NCBI GenBank assembly: GCA_003542325.1
Contig: DPKV01000154.1
Span: 1 to 22,685, forward strand
Direction: 5' to 3'
DNA from: Anaerolineaceae bacterium
Lineage (GTDB): Bacteria; Chloroflexota; Anaerolineae; Anaerolineales; Anaerolineaceae
Length of the DNA: 22,685 bases
The translations under genes and the position numbers were made by a program. This document shows, one piece after another, positions 16,327 through 22,490 of the stretch (position 1 is the first letter of the stretch; each line of letters starts with the position of its first letter). The notes under the pieces are model-generated. The model had not been told where the DNA came from. It worked only from the letters and a program-made list of their open reading frames with translations, and ran no database searches.

Positions 16327-16355
16327 TTGACAATTTGAATTAGTTTATCTATAAT
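16327..16355 (+). promoter_or_regulatory. Consensus sigma-70 promoter of the ECF operon
   Basis: TTGACA (16327-16332), a 17-bp spacer and TATAAT (16350-16355) match the housekeeping consensus exactly. Transcription would start near 16362, giving an untranslated leader of about 225 bases before the ATG at 16587. I do not recognise a purine, preQ1, SAM or other known riboswitch in that leader. The 90 bases before this promoter (16237-16326) show no convincing terminator for the upstream gene. Confidence 0.8.
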
Positions 16356-16493
16356 CATCTACATCATAGTTAAAATTTATCGGTATCAATCATCAACTTG
16401 GCATTACTGTTGCACTAGGGTAAACCAATGTCCATGAGAGTACAGGCAATCCATTTTTTTAATTTCCCCAACACTATAAAAAGCATAATACTG

Positions 16494-16524
16494 TTGTATA
16501 TCCCTGAATTCAGGACTGTATAAT
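16494..16524 (+). promoter_or_regulatory. Second promoter-like element with palindrome CCTGAATTCAGG
   Basis: TTGTAT (16494-16499) and TATAAT (16519-16524) are 19 bases apart, and the perfect 12-bp palindrome CCTGAATTCAGG (16503-16514) fills most of the spacer. It could be a repressor operator on an internal promoter or a small hairpin in the long leader of the upstream promoter. The spacing is longer than ideal, so promoter function is uncertain. Confidence 0.4.
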
Positions 16525-16586
16525 CATGCGTAATTTTTTTCCAATAAAATAAGCTGTTCTCGAAATTTCATAATAGGAGTTATTTA

Positions 16587-18293
16587 ATGACAAAAACGGT
16601 TGTATCGATAAAGGACCTAAAGTATCGCTACCGGGGTCAACCGCGCAACGCGCTGGATAACATTAACCTCGACCTTGAGGAAGGCGATTTTCTGGTAGTG
16701 ATGGGTCCCAGTGAAGCAGGGAAGAGCACCCTGGCAGCAACAATTAATGGCTTGGTACCTCATTTCTTCAAAGGGACAATTAAAGGTGATGTTATCGTAC
16801 TGGATAAAAACACCCGGGAATTTTCCGTAGCCGAAATGGCGAAAGAAGTCGGCATGGTCTTTCAGGATTTTGAGGCCCAACTTTTTTCAACCAATGTGGA
16901 GTTGGAAGTTGCGTTCGGTCCCGAGAATTTTGGCGTAGACCGTCAGGAAATCGCTCATAGGATTGAAGAGAATCTTAAATTAGTGGGGTTGGAAAATTTG
17001 AAGAATCGACCCCCATCAACGCTCTCTGGCGGCCAAAAACAAAAACTGGCAATTGCCTCAGTATTGGCCATGCAGCCGCGGGTTCTGGTGATGGATGAGC
17101 CAACCACTGACCTGGATCCGATCAGTAAATATGGGGTGTTTAAGATTGCAGATGAATTACGCAACCGGGAAGACCTCACATTGATCGTGGTCGAACATGA
17201 AACCGAGGAAGCGATTAACGCAGGAAAAATTCTGCTCATCAATGAAGGTGCACCTTTGATGTATGGGCCTGCTGGTGAGATCCTTCGCAATGTTGAGTTA
17301 ATGGAAACCCACGGGGTAATGCCACTAGGTATTACCCTTTATTTTTCTCGGATGGGCAGTAAGTATCTGCCGTTAACTGTTGAAGATGGCTTGGAAACCT
17401 TCAAGAAAAATAAATGGCAAATCTCTGATCTGTCTTATCAGAAACTGGTAGAAAAGGATAAAGAGCATTTACAGGAACATCAGGAACCTTTGATTATTTG
17501 TAAAGGGCTTGAACATACCTACCCCAACGGTTGTCAAGCGTTACGTGGGGTTGACCTTCAAATCAATCGCGGTGAAATTGTTGCGATTATAGGTCAAAAT
17601 GGAAGTGGTAAAACCACATTGGTCAAGCATTTCAATGGTTTATTTATGCCTACCAAAGGTGAGATTTCCATAAATAATAAACCGACCAGTGAGCAAGGTG
17701 TATTTGAGTTAGGAAAGCAGGTGGGGTATGTGTTCCAAAACCCGGACCATCAGATCTTCTCAGATACGGTTTTCGATGAAGTAGCGTATTCTCTCAAACT
17801 ACGAAACGCTGATGAAGAATTAATTAAAGAGCGAGTTGCCGAAGCATTGGAAGCGGTCGGCCTGGTTGGGTTTGAAAAGGAAGACCCCTTCAGCTTGACG
17901 AAGAGCGGACGGCAGCGTGTGGCAGTTGCTTCAGTAATGGCGGCCAAACCAGAGGTGCTTATTCTTGACGAGCCGACGACAGGTCTGGATTATGCTGAAC
18001 AACGAAGCATGATGGAATTGGTAAAACGACTTAACGAAAGCGGGAGCACGATCATTTTTGTCACCCATCACATGTGGGTCGTCGCTGAATATGCAGAACG
18101 CGTTTATGTGGTCAAAGACGGCTTGATTATGTTAGAGGGCACACCCCGTGAAGTGTACGCACATGAAGAAGAATTAACCAAAGCTTTTCTCAGGCCGCCA
18201 CATCTGGTCAGTCTCTCAAACCGGTTGGGTAAAACAATGCTAAATGTTGAAGAATTTATGGCTTGCACTTCGAAAGATGGAGAGGAATACTAA
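16587..18293 (+). CDS. ECF transporter ATPase, two fused CbiO/EcfA domains
   Basis: A 568-residue protein with two ABC ATPase domains, the energising subunit of an energy-coupling factor importer. Domain 1: Walker A GPSEAGKST (40-48), Q93, signature LSGGQ (146-150), Walker B with D170 and E171, H204. Domain 2: Walker A GQNGSGKTT (336-344), Q384, signature LTKSG (437-441), Walker B with D461 and E462, H494. The second signature departs from the LSGGQ consensus and also from the LSKGE-type variant known in fused ECF ATPases, as its fourth position is Ser instead of Gly. TAGGAG is 7-8 nt before the ATG. The stop TAA shares a base with the EcfT start, indicating translational coupling. Confidence in family is high; substrate is set by the S component. 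Confidence 0.95.
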   Translation: MTKTVVSIKDLKYRYRGQPRNALDNINLDLEEGDFLVVMGPSEAGKSTLAATINGLVPHFFKGTIKGDVIVLDKNTREFSVAEMAKEVGMVFQDFEAQLFSTNVELEVAFGPENFGVDRQEIAHRIEENLKLVGLENLKNRPPSTLSGGQKQKLAIASVLAMQPRVLVMDEPTTDLDPISKYGVFKIADELRNREDLTLIVVEHETEEAINAGKILLINEGAPLMYGPAGEILRNVELMETHGVMPLGITLYFSRMGSKYLPLTVEDGLETFKKNKWQISDLSYQKLVEKDKEHLQEHQEPLIICKGLEHTYPNGCQALRGVDLQINRGEIVAIIGQNGSGKTTLVKHFNGLFMPTKGEISINNKPTSEQGVFELGKQVGYVFQNPDHQIFSDTVFDEVAYSLKLRNADEELIKERVAEALEAVGLVGFEKEDPFSLTKSGRQRVAVASVMAAKPEVLILDEPTTGLDYAEQRSMMELVKRLNESGSTIIFVTHHMWVVAEYAERVYVVKDGLIMLEGTPREVYAHEEELTKAFLRPPHLVSLSNRLGKTMLNVEEFMACTSKDGEEY

Positions 18294-19075
18294 TGGATCA
18301 GGAAATTTATCTCGATCGAAACACTTTTTTTCACCGCCTTGATCCTCGCACCAAAATTTTGATTTTGGTTGTGGCGTTTGTCGTAATTCTTTATTTTGAT
18401 AATCCATTGTGGGTCCTTCCACTTTCATTACTAATAATTTTGCACGGGTTTTTTGCCAAAAGCCTGATCAACCTCAAACGAATCAGCTTTATCCTTGTGA
18501 TATTAACAATTTCCAGTATGGTTCTATGGTCCTTCTTTGCCAATGGCGAAAAGCCGTTGTTCTGGGTCATTGAATTGGAGGCATTTGAATTCGCGATCGC
18601 AAGAACCTTGATAATGCTTTCCTTGGTTACCGAGGGTATGATCTTCCTAAGTACCACACGAACCGAAGAATTTGTTCTGGGTATGATCCGACTTGGACTG
18701 CCATACCGGGTGGGGTTTGCCATTTCAACTGCCTTCCGTATGGTGCCAACGATTGTCAGCAATGTTTTCATTATTGCCCAGGCCCAGCGCAGCCGCGGTT
18801 TGGATCTGGATAGCGGCAATTTGATAGAACGTATCCGTAAATATATTCCTTTGTTAATCCCCGTATTCGTTTCCACGATTAGGAACACAAATGTTTTTGG
18901 TATGGCGCTTGAGGCGAAAGGTTTTGGGGCCCAAAATGACCGCACCTTTTATTACTCATCTGAGTTTAACAAGAATGATTATATCGTTATTGCCTTTTTG
19001 ATCATATTATTTGCGGTCGCTACATATTTGAAGATTAATGGATATGGCACTATCCCTGGTTTGACCAAGTTTTAA
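18293..19075 (+). CDS. ecfT: ECF transporter transmembrane coupling protein EcfT
   Basis: A 260-residue membrane protein linking the ATPases to the substrate-binding S component. The N-terminal FFHRLDPRTKI is typical of EcfT/CbiQ. Several hydrophobic helices follow, and the two cytosolic coupling motifs are present as QRSRGLDL (around 165-172) and LEAKGFGA (206-213), variants of the Ala-Arg-Gly type motifs. ATG 18293 is chosen: GGAGAGG lies 7 nt upstream and it overlaps the ATPase stop (TAATG). An upstream in-frame ATG (18263) would run ten residues into the ATPase gene and lacks support. It lies directly before the phosphorylase gene, 14 bases apart. Confidence 0.93.
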   Translation: MDQEIYLDRNTFFHRLDPRTKILILVVAFVVILYFDNPLWVLPLSLLIILHGFFAKSLINLKRISFILVILTISSMVLWSFFANGEKPLFWVIELEAFEFAIARTLIMLSLVTEGMIFLSTTRTEEFVLGMIRLGLPYRVGFAISTAFRMVPTIVSNVFIIAQAQRSRGLDLDSGNLIERIRKYIPLLIPVFVSTIRNTNVFGMALEAKGFGAQNDRTFYYSSEFNKNDYIVIAFLIILFAVATYLKINGYGTIPGLTKF

Positions 19076-19089
19076 TCGGAGAGAAATCG

Positions 19090-19878
19090 ATGTTATCTGC
19101 AATCATTGGCGGGACGGGATTTTATAGTATTCCTGGCGGTATATTTAATGAAGAGATCATTGAAACGCCTTTCGGAAAAGCGAAGATTTACCGTGGAGAA
19201 GGTGAATTTTCGGACCTGGTTTTCTTGGCAAGGCATGGTGTAAACCACTCCGTCCCACCCCATAAAATTAATTTCAAAGCCAATATCAAAGCATTAAGTA
19301 TGCTGGGGATAAAGAATGTCCTGGCGACTTTCGCAGTGGGATCATTGCGTGAAAGTGTTCCGCCTTTGGGCCTTGTCGCCCTTGACCAATTCCTGGATTT
19401 CACTTCTGGGCGAGATTTCACTTTTCATGAAGGCGGAAAATGGGGATTCGCCCATACCGTTATGACCCATCCATACTGCCAGAGTCTTCGTAAACGATTA
19501 CTGGAAGTTGCTCAACAGAAAGCTATTCCAATTCAATCAGCAGGGACCTATGTCTGCACAAACGGCCCCCGTCTGGAAACAGCGGCTGAGGTGCGCATGT
19601 ATGCTCAGCTAGGTGGAGACGTGGTAGGGATGACAGGGATACCTGAAGCCCCCCTGGCCCGTGAGTTAGGTCTTCATTATGCGGCGGTAGCTTTTTCAAT
19701 CAATTGGGGTGCAGGATTGAAAAGTGAAATTATGGAGATGCATGAAGACGGTTTGGAGAATGTAAAGTCTTCCATACTGGATTTATTTATCACCACGTTA
19801 AGGACTATCCAAATTTCGGGATGTGAATGCGAGTTTGCTTCGTTAGGCTACCATCCTCCTGTGGAAGAAGAGGACTAA
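19090..19878 (+). CDS. Methylthioadenosine/methylthioinosine (purine nucleoside) phosphorylase family
   Basis: A 262-residue PNP/MTAP-family enzyme catalysing phosphorolysis of a purine nucleoside to base plus (thio)ribose 1-phosphate. Family motifs are visible: IIGGTGFYSI at the start (phosphate loop), ARHGVNHSVPPHKINFKAN (47-65), FAVGSLRESV, a DQFLDFTSGR segment (99-108), and NGPRLETAAE with VGMTGIPEAPLARE (158-192). Near residue 205 the adenine-specific MTAP Asp pattern (TDYD-like) is replaced by SINWGAG, with Asn where Asp is expected. By analogy with 6-oxopurine enzymes, this suggests hypoxanthine nucleosides, that is methylthioinosine or inosine rather than MTA. The MtaD-type deaminase in the same operon would supply such substrates. 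GGAGAG lies about 7 nt before the ATG. The exact substrate is inferred. Confidence 0.88.
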   Translation: MLSAIIGGTGFYSIPGGIFNEEIIETPFGKAKIYRGEGEFSDLVFLARHGVNHSVPPHKINFKANIKALSMLGIKNVLATFAVGSLRESVPPLGLVALDQFLDFTSGRDFTFHEGGKWGFAHTVMTHPYCQSLRKRLLEVAQQKAIPIQSAGTYVCTNGPRLETAAEVRMYAQLGGDVVGMTGIPEAPLARELGLHYAAVAFSINWGAGLKSEIMEMHEDGLENVKSSILDLFITTLRTIQISGCECEFASLGYHPPVEEED

Positions 19879-19986
19879 GGAGTAAATTTTCATTTGGAAG
19901 GAGGTGAACCTGATTCAATAACCAGGAGAAAAATAGAAGAATGGTTTTTCATTATCGATAAAGTCAATTAGAACTGGAGGAATGTT

Positions 19987-20823
19987 ATGCGTGAAGTATT
20001 TAAAATGTGGAAGTACACAAGAATGATTATTCTTGTAGCGCTTTCCGCTGCGATTTACGCAGCAGTGTTGATTCCCTTCAAGGGTGGTATTCCCTTGATT
20101 CCTGGTATCACTGAAGTTCGTCCGGCGAATGTATTCCCGGTTATCTTTGGCCTGATGTTTGGTCCTGCAGGTGCCTGGGGTGCAGCCATCGGTAACACCA
20201 TTGGTGACCTCTTTGGCGGCACTCTGGGTTGGGGCAGCATCTTCGGTTTTGTTGGCAATTTCTATCTGGGATTTGTTGCCTATAAGTTGTGGGGTGCATT
20301 GGGCTTAGTCCCCAAGGACAACATGGAACAGAATGTCAACAAATGGACGAAGTTGCTGGCCTATATCATCATTACAATTGTTGCGGCTGCTGCTTGCGCA
20401 GTTATCATTGCCTGGTACCTTGATATTGTCAAGATCGTTCCATTCGCATTCCTGGCAGTCACAATCACATTGAATAACGCGGTTGCAGAAATCCTGCTTG
20501 GGCCTCCGCTGCTCCTGTTGCTTTATCCCCGTGTCAAGAAATGGGGCCTGATCTGGACAGACATCATGGACAAAGAGGATGTTGCTCGTGGATTTGCCAA
20601 ACATATCGGCGCAGTTCTCATGATTGTTGGCGCCATCGGTGGTGTGGTTGTTGGCGTCGGTATCTCCACCGGTTTATATGGTCAACAGATCTTAGGTTTC
20701 ACCGGCACACAGGGTGAGGTTGGCGTTTGGGCCGGTGTCGCACCCTTCCTGGCGATGATTGTTCTGGCCAGCTTCATGCTTTCCGGCCGAGAGCAATTTG
20801 TTGAAGAAGAGGAAGAAATCTAG
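19987..20823 (+). CDS. ECF transporter S component, substrate-specific membrane protein
   Basis: A 278-residue integral membrane protein, the likely substrate-binding subunit of the ECF importer encoded just upstream. Helix 1 contains ALSAAIYAAVL, the small-residue pattern by which S components dock on EcfT. Conserved-looking loops follow: ITEVRPANVFPVIFGLMFGP (41-60), GAWGAAIGNTIGDLFGG (62-78) and GFVGNF (87-92). It is longer than usual S components (about 180-200), with one or two additional C-terminal helices (about 205-228 and 248-266) and an acidic tail EEEEEI. It resembles the QueT/QrtT-like group in overall style, but I cannot place it in a named family. GGAGG is 6 nt before ATG 19987. 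A gap of 108 bases after the phosphorylase gene holds only a short false start (MVFHYR). Confidence 0.8.
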   Translation: MREVFKMWKYTRMIILVALSAAIYAAVLIPFKGGIPLIPGITEVRPANVFPVIFGLMFGPAGAWGAAIGNTIGDLFGGTLGWGSIFGFVGNFYLGFVAYKLWGALGLVPKDNMEQNVNKWTKLLAYIIITIVAAAACAVIIAWYLDIVKIVPFAFLAVTITLNNAVAEILLGPPLLLLLYPRVKKWGLIWTDIMDKEDVARGFAKHIGAVLMIVGAIGGVVVGVGISTGLYGQQILGFTGTQGEVGVWAGVAPFLAMIVLASFMLSGREQFVEEEEEI

Positions 20824-20855
20824 GTTCGGTAGAATCAATTTGAGGAAGATATAAG

Positions 20856-20895
20856 AAAAAATCTGCCCCTTGCTGGAAATCCGGTGAGGGGCAGA
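20856..20895 (-). terminator. Hairpin between S component and deaminase genes, terminator-like on the minus strand
   Basis: TCTGCCCCT (20862-20870) pairs perfectly with AGGGGCAGA (20887-20895); the loop region CTGG/CCGG can extend the stem. On the plus strand no T tract follows, so it acts there as an intercistronic structure. On the minus strand the stem runs into six T residues (complement of A run 20856-20861), a good intrinsic terminator, although no minus-strand gene is seen to its right. Confidence 0.5.
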
Positions 20896-20920
20896 CGTTC
20901 ATCGGGCGATAGGAAAAACG

Positions 20921-22234
20921 ATGCCAGAACAGATCGATCAATTAATTGTTGGTGGAGAAATTCTTACTCAGAATTCTATTGGTGAACGAATAATTGACGG
21001 CGCCCTTGCAATAAGTGGTGAAAAAATCGTCGCTGTAGGAAGCCGTGAGGATTTGTTGGCGCGTTATCAGGCAAAAGAGACCATTGATGTCAGTGGTAAG
21101 GTGGTTTTACCTGGGCTGGTCAATGCGCATACTCATGCGGCGATGACCATTTTTAGGGGTATTGCTGATGATATACCCCTGGAACCATGGTTGCGGAAAA
21201 TCTGGCCATTGGAGTTGAAATTTGCGACTGAAGAGAATGTCGCATTAGGAACAGAAATTGCCTTTGCCGAAATGATCCGTGGGGGAACAACTACCGCTGC
21301 GGATATGTATTGGCACTACCAAACCATAATCGACACCGCGAAAAAAGTCGGGTTTCGATTAGCAACGGGTATTGGTGTACTTGAAGCTCTTTATGAAGAA
21401 AGTAAGGAGATCCTGAAAAACAGGATCTGTGAGTATATTGAAACCTATCAGCATGATGAGCTTATAACGCCCTGTACATTGATCCATTCCACCTATACAG
21501 TTGGTCGAGAGACGCTATTGTTAGTCAGGCAAATCAGTCAAGAGTATGGCGTTGTTTTCATGACCCATGCCGCAGAGTCCAGAGCTGAATTGAAAGATGT
21601 TTTGGAACAAACAGGGAAAACCCCCATTAATTATCTGGAAGAATTGGGTATGCTGAGTAGCAACTCGTTGTTGGCACATGGCGTTCATCTTGACGATAAT
21701 GAAATTCGATTGTTGGCTGAACGAAAGACTTCAATTGCGCACTGCCCTTCATCAAATCTCAAGTTGGGGTCGGGTATCGCGCGTGTGGCGGATTTACTTG
21801 CAAATGGTGTGAATGTGGCGATCGGTACAGATGGATGCGCATCAAACAACAATTTGGACATGTGGGAAGAAATGCACCTGGCATCGTTGGTCCAAAAAGG
21901 TGTTAACTTTGATCCGACAGTATTACCCGCTGAACAGGTTCTGTATATGGCGACTATGGGCGGGGCGAAAGCTCTAAATCTGGATGACAAAATCGGGTCT
22001 CTGGAAGCTGGAAAACAGGCTGATCTGATCATCGTGGATTTAAATAGCTTGCATACAACGCCAGTCTTTGATGCAGCTTCGCATTTGGTGTTCACATCGA
22101 AAGCCAGCGACGTTGAGGCGACCATGATTGCTGGACGCTGGCAAATGCGCGACAAGAAACTTTTAACAATCGATGAAGAGGGGAAAAAAGATGAAATCCG
22201 ACAGTTGGCAGAGATGATAAAGCAAGAACTTTAG
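20921..22234 (+). CDS. mtaD: Methylthioadenosine/S-adenosylhomocysteine deaminase family amidohydrolase
   Basis: A 437-residue amidohydrolase (COG0402) of the MtaD/SAH deaminase type, which converts adenosine derivatives (MTA, SAH, adenosine, 5'-deoxyadenosine in known members) to inosine derivatives plus ammonia. Metal and catalytic residues: H70 and H72 in NAHTH, H216 with E219 in THAAES, H253 in LAHGVH, D304 in GTDGCASNN. The segment VLPGLVNAHTHAAM followed by IADDIPLEPWLRKIWPLE is characteristic of MtaD. Start ATG 20921 has only a weak AGGAAA. It is last in the ECF operon, 97 bases after the S component, with a stable hairpin between. Together with the phosphorylase it makes a two-step route from a 5'-modified adenosine to hypoxanthine and a sugar phosphate. 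Substrate is inferred from family and context. Confidence 0.93.
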   Translation: MPEQIDQLIVGGEILTQNSIGERIIDGALAISGEKIVAVGSREDLLARYQAKETIDVSGKVVLPGLVNAHTHAAMTIFRGIADDIPLEPWLRKIWPLELKFATEENVALGTEIAFAEMIRGGTTTAADMYWHYQTIIDTAKKVGFRLATGIGVLEALYEESKEILKNRICEYIETYQHDELITPCTLIHSTYTVGRETLLLVRQISQEYGVVFMTHAAESRAELKDVLEQTGKTPINYLEELGMLSSNSLLAHGVHLDDNEIRLLAERKTSIAHCPSSNLKLGSGIARVADLLANGVNVAIGTDGCASNNNLDMWEEMHLASLVQKGVNFDPTVLPAEQVLYMATMGGAKALNLDDKIGSLEAGKQADLIIVDLNSLHTTPVFDAASHLVFTSKASDVEATMIAGRWQMRDKKLLTIDEEGKKDEIRQLAEMIKQEL

Positions 22235-22253: not shown

Positions 22254-22490
22254 ATTATCCTTCTCTCAGTGGTGAATAACCGGATGAACAGCGTGATGAA
22301 GATGCTGACGATTATTACAACCTTATTCATGCCGATCTCGTTCCTTGCCGGGTTCTTTGGTATGGACTTCTCGAAGCCGGGAGAAGGCATGGACTTCTGG
22401 ACGAACGGGCCAGTGTTTTATGTGGTTCTGGCTGTTACGGTCCTTTTTCCAGTTGTCCTGATCATTTATATCACTTGAAAAGGCTGGCTG
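22254..22490 (+). pseudogene. corA: Decayed C-terminal fragment of a CorA-type Mg2+/Co2+ transporter
   Basis: The frame from 22254 reads LLSVVNNRMNSVMKMLTI, then TTLFMPISFLAGFFGMDF, a second hydrophobic helix ending LFPVVLIIYIT, then a TGA (22476-22478), and after it KGWLKW. This matches the last two helices of CorA, including the NNRMN start of TM1 and the GMN selectivity loop (here GMD). Everything upstream of the SVVNNRMN region, about 250 residues, is missing, and the usual KGWL C-terminus lies behind an in-frame TGA. The 69-residue open frame starting at GTG 22269 is therefore a remnant, not a functional transporter. An Asp in place of the Asn of GMN also argues for decay. Confidence 0.7.

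Follow-up and report, generated by a model that had tools for sequence, protein, structure and literature searches.

A Recurrent Cluster of ECF-Type Importer and Nucleoside Enzyme Genes in an Anaerolineaceae Bacterium: Probable Uptake and Degradation of 5′-Modified Adenosines

The stretch studied here is contig DPKV01000154.1 (22,685 nucleotides; hereafter the window), which is C20 among the 257 contigs of an Anaerolineaceae assembly that is 66.6% complete. On its plus strand, with short gaps between them, lie five genes encoding a fused energy-coupling factor (ECF) ATPase, the transmembrane component EcfT, a nucleoside phosphorylase, an S component, and an amidohydrolase (Table 1). We propose that this ECF-type importer and the enzymes encoded with it probably import, then degrade, 5′-modified adenosines such as methylthioadenosine (MTA) or 5′-deoxyadenosine. 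The proposal is built on the genes, their families, their recurrent linkage in other genomes, and an Asn/Asp contrast in the phosphorylase, all seen directly, together with a predicted fold for the S component. An earlier reading of the letters of the window (the original prediction) had claimed a complete ECF importer in five same-strand genes; the open reading frames, their coordinates, and the Pfam families agree with it.

The proposed scheme is as follows. The S component, MtaT-like and of the QueT family, would bind the nucleoside outside the cell, and EcfT with the fused ATPase would drive its release into the cell. The deaminase would then produce methylthioinosine (MTI) or 5′-deoxyinosine plus ammonia, and the Asn-type phosphorylase would split these into hypoxanthine and either methylthioribose-1-phosphate or 5-deoxyribose-1-phosphate. 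Finally, the sugar phosphate would be consumed by MtnA and a class II aldolase, or by a methionine-forming branch. The cargo, the enzyme specificities, the flux, and the expression are what we infer from the observations below.

Table 1. Features of the cluster and its surroundings in the window.
Feature	Coordinates	Strand	Basis
Sigma-70-type promoter-like box, TTGACA-N17-TATAAT	16327..16355	+	Motif match, perfect
Fused ECF ATPase EcfA-EcfA′, 568 aa	16587..18293	+	PF00005 twice; TIGR04520 and TIGR04521 over cut-off
EcfT transmembrane component, 260 aa	18293..19075	+	PF02361 (CbiQ), 85.7 bits, cut-off 25
MTAP/MTIP-type nucleoside phosphorylase, 262 aa	19090..19878	+	PF01048 (PNP_UDP_1); Asn205
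ECF S component, 278 aa, QueT family, MtaT-like in context	19987..20823	+	PF06177
Perfect 15-bp RNA hairpin between S component and deaminase genes	20862..20895	+	Folding
MtaD/DadD-type amidohydrolase, 437 aa	20921..22234	+	PF01979, 263.9 bits

The Transporter

All the parts of a group I ECF system are encoded together: an S component (PF06177), EcfT (PF02361), and two ATP-binding cassette (ABC) ATPase domains, fused in one polypeptide (PF00005 twice). The S component scores 62.8 bits against the QueT family, above the curated cut-off of 33.7, over residues 15–180. The original prediction recognized it as an ECF S component and missed its membership in QueT. A sequence search of solved structures returned no homologue at E 10, and the AlphaFold2 model of the protein matches solved ECF S components, with their six-helix fold. 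About 80 additional C-terminal residues are predicted to form two more helices. In the ATPase, LSGG[QE] is conserved in the first half of all 65 aligned sequences. The second half departs from the canonical ABC signature, with LTKSGRQ at residues 436–449; elsewhere this segment reads LTKGERQ or LSKGERQ among the ten commonest variants of the same 65 sequences.

Linkage to Salvage Genes

Genome contigs were scanned for relatives of the S component gene, 180 were confirmed, and the best 80 loci (designated L with a number) were kept. Open reading frames were called in all 80, and neighbors within 6.5 kb on the same strand were compared with the five window proteins; neighbors were also clustered without prior labels, giving 19 recurrent clusters, seven of which had their families named from one representative each. 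The ATPase is present at 71 loci and EcfT at 70. The phosphorylase is found at 46, an MtnA-type isomerase at 41, and the deaminase at 35, with a class II (fuculose-phosphate-type) aldolase at 17, an RpiR regulator at 16, a methionine-gamma-lyase/sulfhydrylase-like protein at 13, and S-adenosylhomocysteine (SAH) hydrolase, SAHH, at 6. The 35 fully flanked loci, whose sequence extends 6.5 kb or more upstream and 5.5 kb or more downstream, give 20 for the phosphorylase, 20 for MtnA, 18 for the deaminase, and 10 for the aldolase. MtnA accompanies the phosphorylase at 40 of its 46 loci. The original prediction had set persistent linkage of S homologues with MTAP/MTIP and MtaD genes as its own check, and the counts bear it out.

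The placement of the phosphorylase gene between those of EcfT and the S component, which had been singled out in the window, is repeated in 36 of the 46 linked loci; in three the gene is upstream of the ATPase gene, in five downstream of the S component gene, and in two the sequence is cut before EcfT. The order EcfT, (any gene), phosphorylase, S component, deaminase is found in 27 loci. With lineage taken from record titles, the salvage linkage recurs in Chloroflexota, Bacillota, and Spirochaetota, and the phosphorylase is present in 31 of the 32 loci titled Chloroflexota. When the salvage-linked label is mapped on a tree of 90 S proteins, 6 changes suffice, compared with a mean of 30.3 after shuffling, a contrast to which near-copies add. 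As a control, the phosphorylase was found at none of 13 other S loci from a search of the phylum (L017–L029; L017 is 58% identical to the window protein and the rest at most 50%), despite the presence of some phosphorylase homologue in 187 of 201 phylum genomes. Fisher's exact test gives p = 9e-5 for this contrast, uncorrected for relatedness.

The most extensive arrangement is that of Caldanaerobacter (L085), where genes for the deaminase, aldolase, alcohol dehydrogenase, MtnA, ATPase, EcfT, phosphorylase, and S component form a single stretch. In Ornatilinea (L030), the nearest relative, with an S component 90% identical, the 1.5 kb after the deaminase gene hold a short-chain dehydrogenase/reductase and an MtnA paralogue. 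Separately, S genes 63–69% identical to that of the window occur in bins titled Desulfuromonadales (L050), Rhodobacterales (L052), Planctomycetota, and Pseudomonadota (L061 and L062 being the other two loci), reflecting either horizontal transfer or contaminated bins; L050 and L052 have a linked phosphorylase.

The Phosphorylase and the Deaminase

Among solved structures, the nearest phosphorylase chain is 3ozb (171.3 bits). Its entry is labelled methylthioadenosine phosphorylase, and we take it to be the Pseudomonas MTI phosphorylase. The position of residue 205 presumably reads the purine 6-position. Asn205 of the window enzyme aligns with Asn in 3ozb, and both MTAP chains shown, 2a8y and 9vs8, have Asp. 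The same residue is Asn in 47 of 47 linked phosphorylases (the window and 46 relatives). All 8 MTAP-like copies retrieved from other places in eight genomes have Asp, among them a second phosphorylase of the window's own genome, on contig C79. We call these Asp-type copies "housekeeping", a label of our own. Given the Asn/Asp contrast, the window phosphorylase is predicted to be specific for 6-oxopurines. Two linked phosphorylases, those of L082 and L091, deviate in the motif and resemble each other, and both still have Asn. At L091 the role is filled by a purine nucleoside phosphorylase (PNP), which scores over the cut-off of that family; PNP is a 6-oxopurine family. The linked enzyme of Caldanaerobacter passes the MTI phosphorylase cut-off (246.4 versus 223).

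The amidohydrolase is a predicted MTA/5′-deoxyadenosine/SAH deaminase. Its nearest solved chain is 4f0r, an MTA/SAH deaminase (1.2e-84), and it also matches 4gbd (273.7 bits), which we understand to come from Pseudomonas. Metal-ligand motifs of the amidohydrolases are found at residues 68 (NAHTHAAM), 187 (LIHSTYTV), 214 (MTHAAES), and 301 (IGTDGCASNN), and an alignment of 33 sequences shows them retained in its commonest variants. An Asn-type phosphorylase together with an MTA/SAH-like deaminase leads us to predict that a 6-amino nucleoside is imported and deaminated and that its inosine form then undergoes phosphorolysis, with a separate MTAP present besides.

The Downstream Pathway

The window itself has neither MtnA nor the aldolase. 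Its end lies 451 bases past the deaminase gene, and genes for later steps of the pathway may be missing for that reason. A canonical MtnA is present elsewhere in the genome, on contig C91. The pairing of MtnA with a class II aldolase, recurrent near the S gene, is that of the dihydroxyacetone phosphate (DHAP) shunt for 5′-deoxynucleosides, as outlined in PMC10986504, PMC12632272, and PMC6079011. The sulfhydrylase-like neighbors would fit, by analogy, the capture of methanethiol into methionine described for Rhodospirillum (PMC4958253).

Two types of MtnA paralogue occur near the transporters: a canonical one with a DQR motif, like the C91 copy, and a divergent one with a DRR motif (L030:13666-14718). 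The DRR type predominates at Chloroflexota loci, and L073, L082, and L102 hold both. The divergent type might be an enzyme for 5-deoxyribose-1-phosphate; among the solved relatives of the Ornatilinea MtnA, none is named as specific for 5-deoxyribose.

Weighing the Alternatives

The name QueT suggests another cargo: the transporter could import a queuosine precursor, the nucleoside enzymes adjoining it by chance or processing queuosine nucleoside. The QueT match, itself over the Pfam cut-off, speaks for this, QueT/QrtT S components are described as queuosine-precursor importers (PMC11130926), and the own genome carries a partial gene for tRNA-guanine transglycosylase (TGT), which makes use of queuosine by the cell likely. 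The neighborhoods point elsewhere. A homologue of that partial TGT was not found among the neighbors of the 80 loci (E 1e-5), a search in which other queuosine genes had no models of their own. Among the 19 recurrent clusters, five are the families of the window cluster itself and seven more were named, none of them a queuosine enzyme; the other seven are unnamed. Neither the window nor any of the 38 loci scanned (29 of the 80 and nine from the phylum search) gave a preQ1 riboswitch at the gathering score. What recurs instead are MtnA, MtaD-type, and MTIP-type genes. Lacking TGT among the neighbors and preQ1 riboswitches at gathering score, queuosine import was largely set aside, and we consider it quite unlikely. 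The persistent linkage and the lack of TGT favor the cargo class of the original prediction, a 5′-modified purine nucleoside, with MTA or 5′-deoxyadenosine the most likely candidates.

A second possibility, which we regard as unlikely, is that the nucleosides imported are of a wider range or of another kind (SAH, adenosine, inosine, or further purine nucleosides), MTA and 5′-deoxyadenosine being only some of the substrates. SAHH adjoins the S gene on the plus strand at L070, L071, L076, L080, L101, and L104, and a seventh copy is on the opposite strand in Halolamina (L105); the SAHH-linked loci belong to Actinomycetota, a Treponema, a Clostridia bin, and a haloarchaeon, and this gene content suggests SAH or a related nucleoside as the cargo there. 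The SAH in the label of the nearest solved deaminase, the PNP at L091, and the similar motif at L082 also agree with a wider range. Against it, MtnA, the usual companion of the linked phosphorylase, acts on 5-methylthio and 5-deoxy sugars, the SAHH loci form separate small groups on the tree (3 changes, 6 rows), and the window has no SAHH. Alternatively, the cluster could be passive, the enzymes recycling by-products of the cell's own S-adenosylmethionine (SAM) and the ECF genes serving an unrelated nutrient. MTA and 5′-deoxyadenosine made internally do call for enzymes of the same route, and part of the S relatives lack SAM-by-product genes. However, the own genome already has an Asp-type MTAP-like gene and a canonical MtnA, the phosphorylase gene is embedded between those of EcfT and the S component in most linked loci, and the linkage repeats across three phyla; a passive cluster is in our view very unlikely.

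Import and degradation of 5′-modified adenosines is thus the reading that we prefer, and several observations besides the QueT name and the partial TGT weigh against it. Neither window enzyme scores high enough to pass the cut-off of any NCBIfam family listed. The phosphorylase scores 230.7 against TIGR01694 MTAP (cut-off 274.85) and 220.4 against PRK09136 MTIP (cut-off 223), its raw bits leaning slightly to MTAP, and the deaminase scores 386.1 against the PRK07228 5′-deoxyadenosine family (cut-off 522) and 296.8 against PRK15493 for MTA/SAH (cut-off 779). The deaminases of L030 and L085 also miss every NCBIfam cut-off listed, and the phosphorylases of L030 and L059 miss that of MTIP, leaving L085 as the only one of three MTAP/MTIP-type relatives tested to pass. 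With these cut-offs missed by both window enzymes, the deaminate-first reading rests on residue 205 and linkage. Across the same-strand neighborhood of 6.5 kb, 27 of the 80 loci lack all six SAM-by-product gene types considered, as do 13 of the 35 fully flanked loci. The window and the loci scanned for the preQ1 riboswitch likewise gave no SAM riboswitch at the gathering score. MtnA is missing from the window, the class II aldolase was not found in the incomplete own assembly, and the strong hairpin that divides the S gene from the deaminase gene leaves full co-transcription not certain. L096:10001-12194 and L103:7971-10181 share another neighborhood, judged from first residues to be enolase-superfamily-like and GHMP-kinase-like; at both loci no ATPase or EcfT was found within 6.5 kb, and L096, a Zixiibacteriota bin, has one weak ATPase match farther away.

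It is tempting to go further and propose a self-contained module that scavenges foreign SAM by-products (MTA, 5′-deoxyadenosine, or SAH) as food, taking them up through an S component of QueT fold that has gained two helices. The imported pool would be kept apart by the deaminate-first, Asn-type (6-oxopurine) route, the internal pool being left to the Asp-type MTAP, and the S subfamily, in bacteria and possibly haloarchaea, would swap the adjoining enzyme (MTIP, PNP, or SAHH) according to cargo. We offer this fuller version tentatively, as a possibility that falls somewhat short of even chances.

Relation to Known Systems

Rodionov et al. are said to have predicted MtaTUV as an ECF-type MTA transporter in 2009. 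We take the MtaT of TCDB 3.A.1.33 to be this MtaTUV. A 2013 table lists TCDB family 33, "The Methylthioadenosine (MTA) Family", with 33.1 MtaT, citing Rodionov et al. 2009; the MtaT row gives 6–7 predicted transmembrane segments and, unlike neighboring rows, bears no "(ECF)" mark (PMC3654945). The literature searched yielded no biochemical test of an MTA ECF importer, only this table entry from PMC3654945. The doubt of the original prediction that such an ECF class had been characterized stands as far as the literature searched goes; its sense that nothing was on record is corrected by the table, where the family had already been named. The window adds a clear case to a named, apparently untested class and is not a wholly new machine. 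It resembles the transporter family TCDB 3.A.1.33, assigned to MTA (PMC3654945), in its probable cargo; in Caldanaerobacter, transporter and salvage genes form one stretch. The S subfamily shows the linkage to MTA/methionine salvage (phosphorylase, MtnA, and deaminase in 46, 41, and 35 of the 80 loci); its likeness to MtaT is one of gene context, as distinct from a comparison with MtaT sequences. The deaminate-first signature was not found stated for ECF loci in the literature searched.

With QueT/QrtT the window S component shares the family PF06177, and it differs from them in its C-terminal extension, its MTA-salvage neighbors, and the absence of TGT among those found; for TGT and the preQ1 riboswitch, the two queuosine markers looked for, the subfamily does not show the association expected of a queuosine-precursor importer.

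The recurrent MtnA-type isomerase and class II fuculose-phosphate-type aldolase are shared with the DHAP shunt and with DrdKIA salvage of 5-deoxyribose, as PMC6079011, PMC10986504, and PMC12632272 describe them, and some published DHAP-shunt clusters contain putative sugar transporters (PMC6079011). In E. coli, by contrast, entry is by nucleosidase and kinase with a mere putative permease, according to PMC12632272, whereas ECF import, a deaminase, and an Asn-type phosphorylase are proposed here. The pair of MTA deaminase and MTI phosphorylase of Pseudomonas (Guan et al. 2011, 2012, as listed in PMC6302742) is similar in that the nearest solved phosphorylase is 3ozb and the deaminase matches 4gbd. 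It differs in that the window enzymes are coupled to a dedicated importer, in a genome with a separate Asp-type MTAP-like gene.

Production of MTA and 5′-deoxyadenosine is very widespread, and the general fate of these compounds, or of what is made from them, is export as waste. Strains of E. coli able to live on them have been described, and for transport their operon offers no more than a "putative permease" (PMC12632272 for both statements). A dedicated ECF importer tied to degradation genes would, if real, name the entry step and provide a high-affinity binder. It would also correct the automatic name "QueT transporter" for part of a large S-component group, which numbers 2653 proteins at E 0.001 or better, a count that takes in salvage-linked and other members alike.

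Other Features of the Locus

The perfect promoter-like box claimed upstream of the cluster was found, and it is the single match to TTGACA-N15..19-TATAAT in the window on either strand. Ornatilinea has the same box at −254 from the ATPase start, compared with −260 here; in Thermanaerothrix (L036 and L041) no TTGACA/TATAAT box was found within 420 bases upstream of the operon. A structured 5′ leader was sought at 16362–16500, where the fold is no better than that of shuffled sequences (z 1.18). The start of EcfT was taken as the ATG at 18293, the open reading frame extending further upstream to a TTG at 18263.

The gap that holds the hairpin folds with a minimum free energy of −35.6 kcal/mol (z = −4.97). 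Of the claim that the five genes form one operon, the shared strand and short gaps stand; co-transcription of the deaminase gene with the rest is uncertain because the hairpin is strong. Long, strong, near-perfect hairpins occupy the same gap in six of six relatives folded without a shuffle control (L030, L031, L036, L041, L049, and L063), and their sequences vary from group to group. The hairpin is possibly a partial terminator or a message stabilizer that tunes enzyme dosage.

After the deaminase gene, at about 22254–22481 near the contig end, a reading of the sequence reveals an orphan fragment resembling the C-terminal part of a CorA-like transporter, its N-terminal part absent, which would be what is left of a gene or else the product of a join in the assembly.

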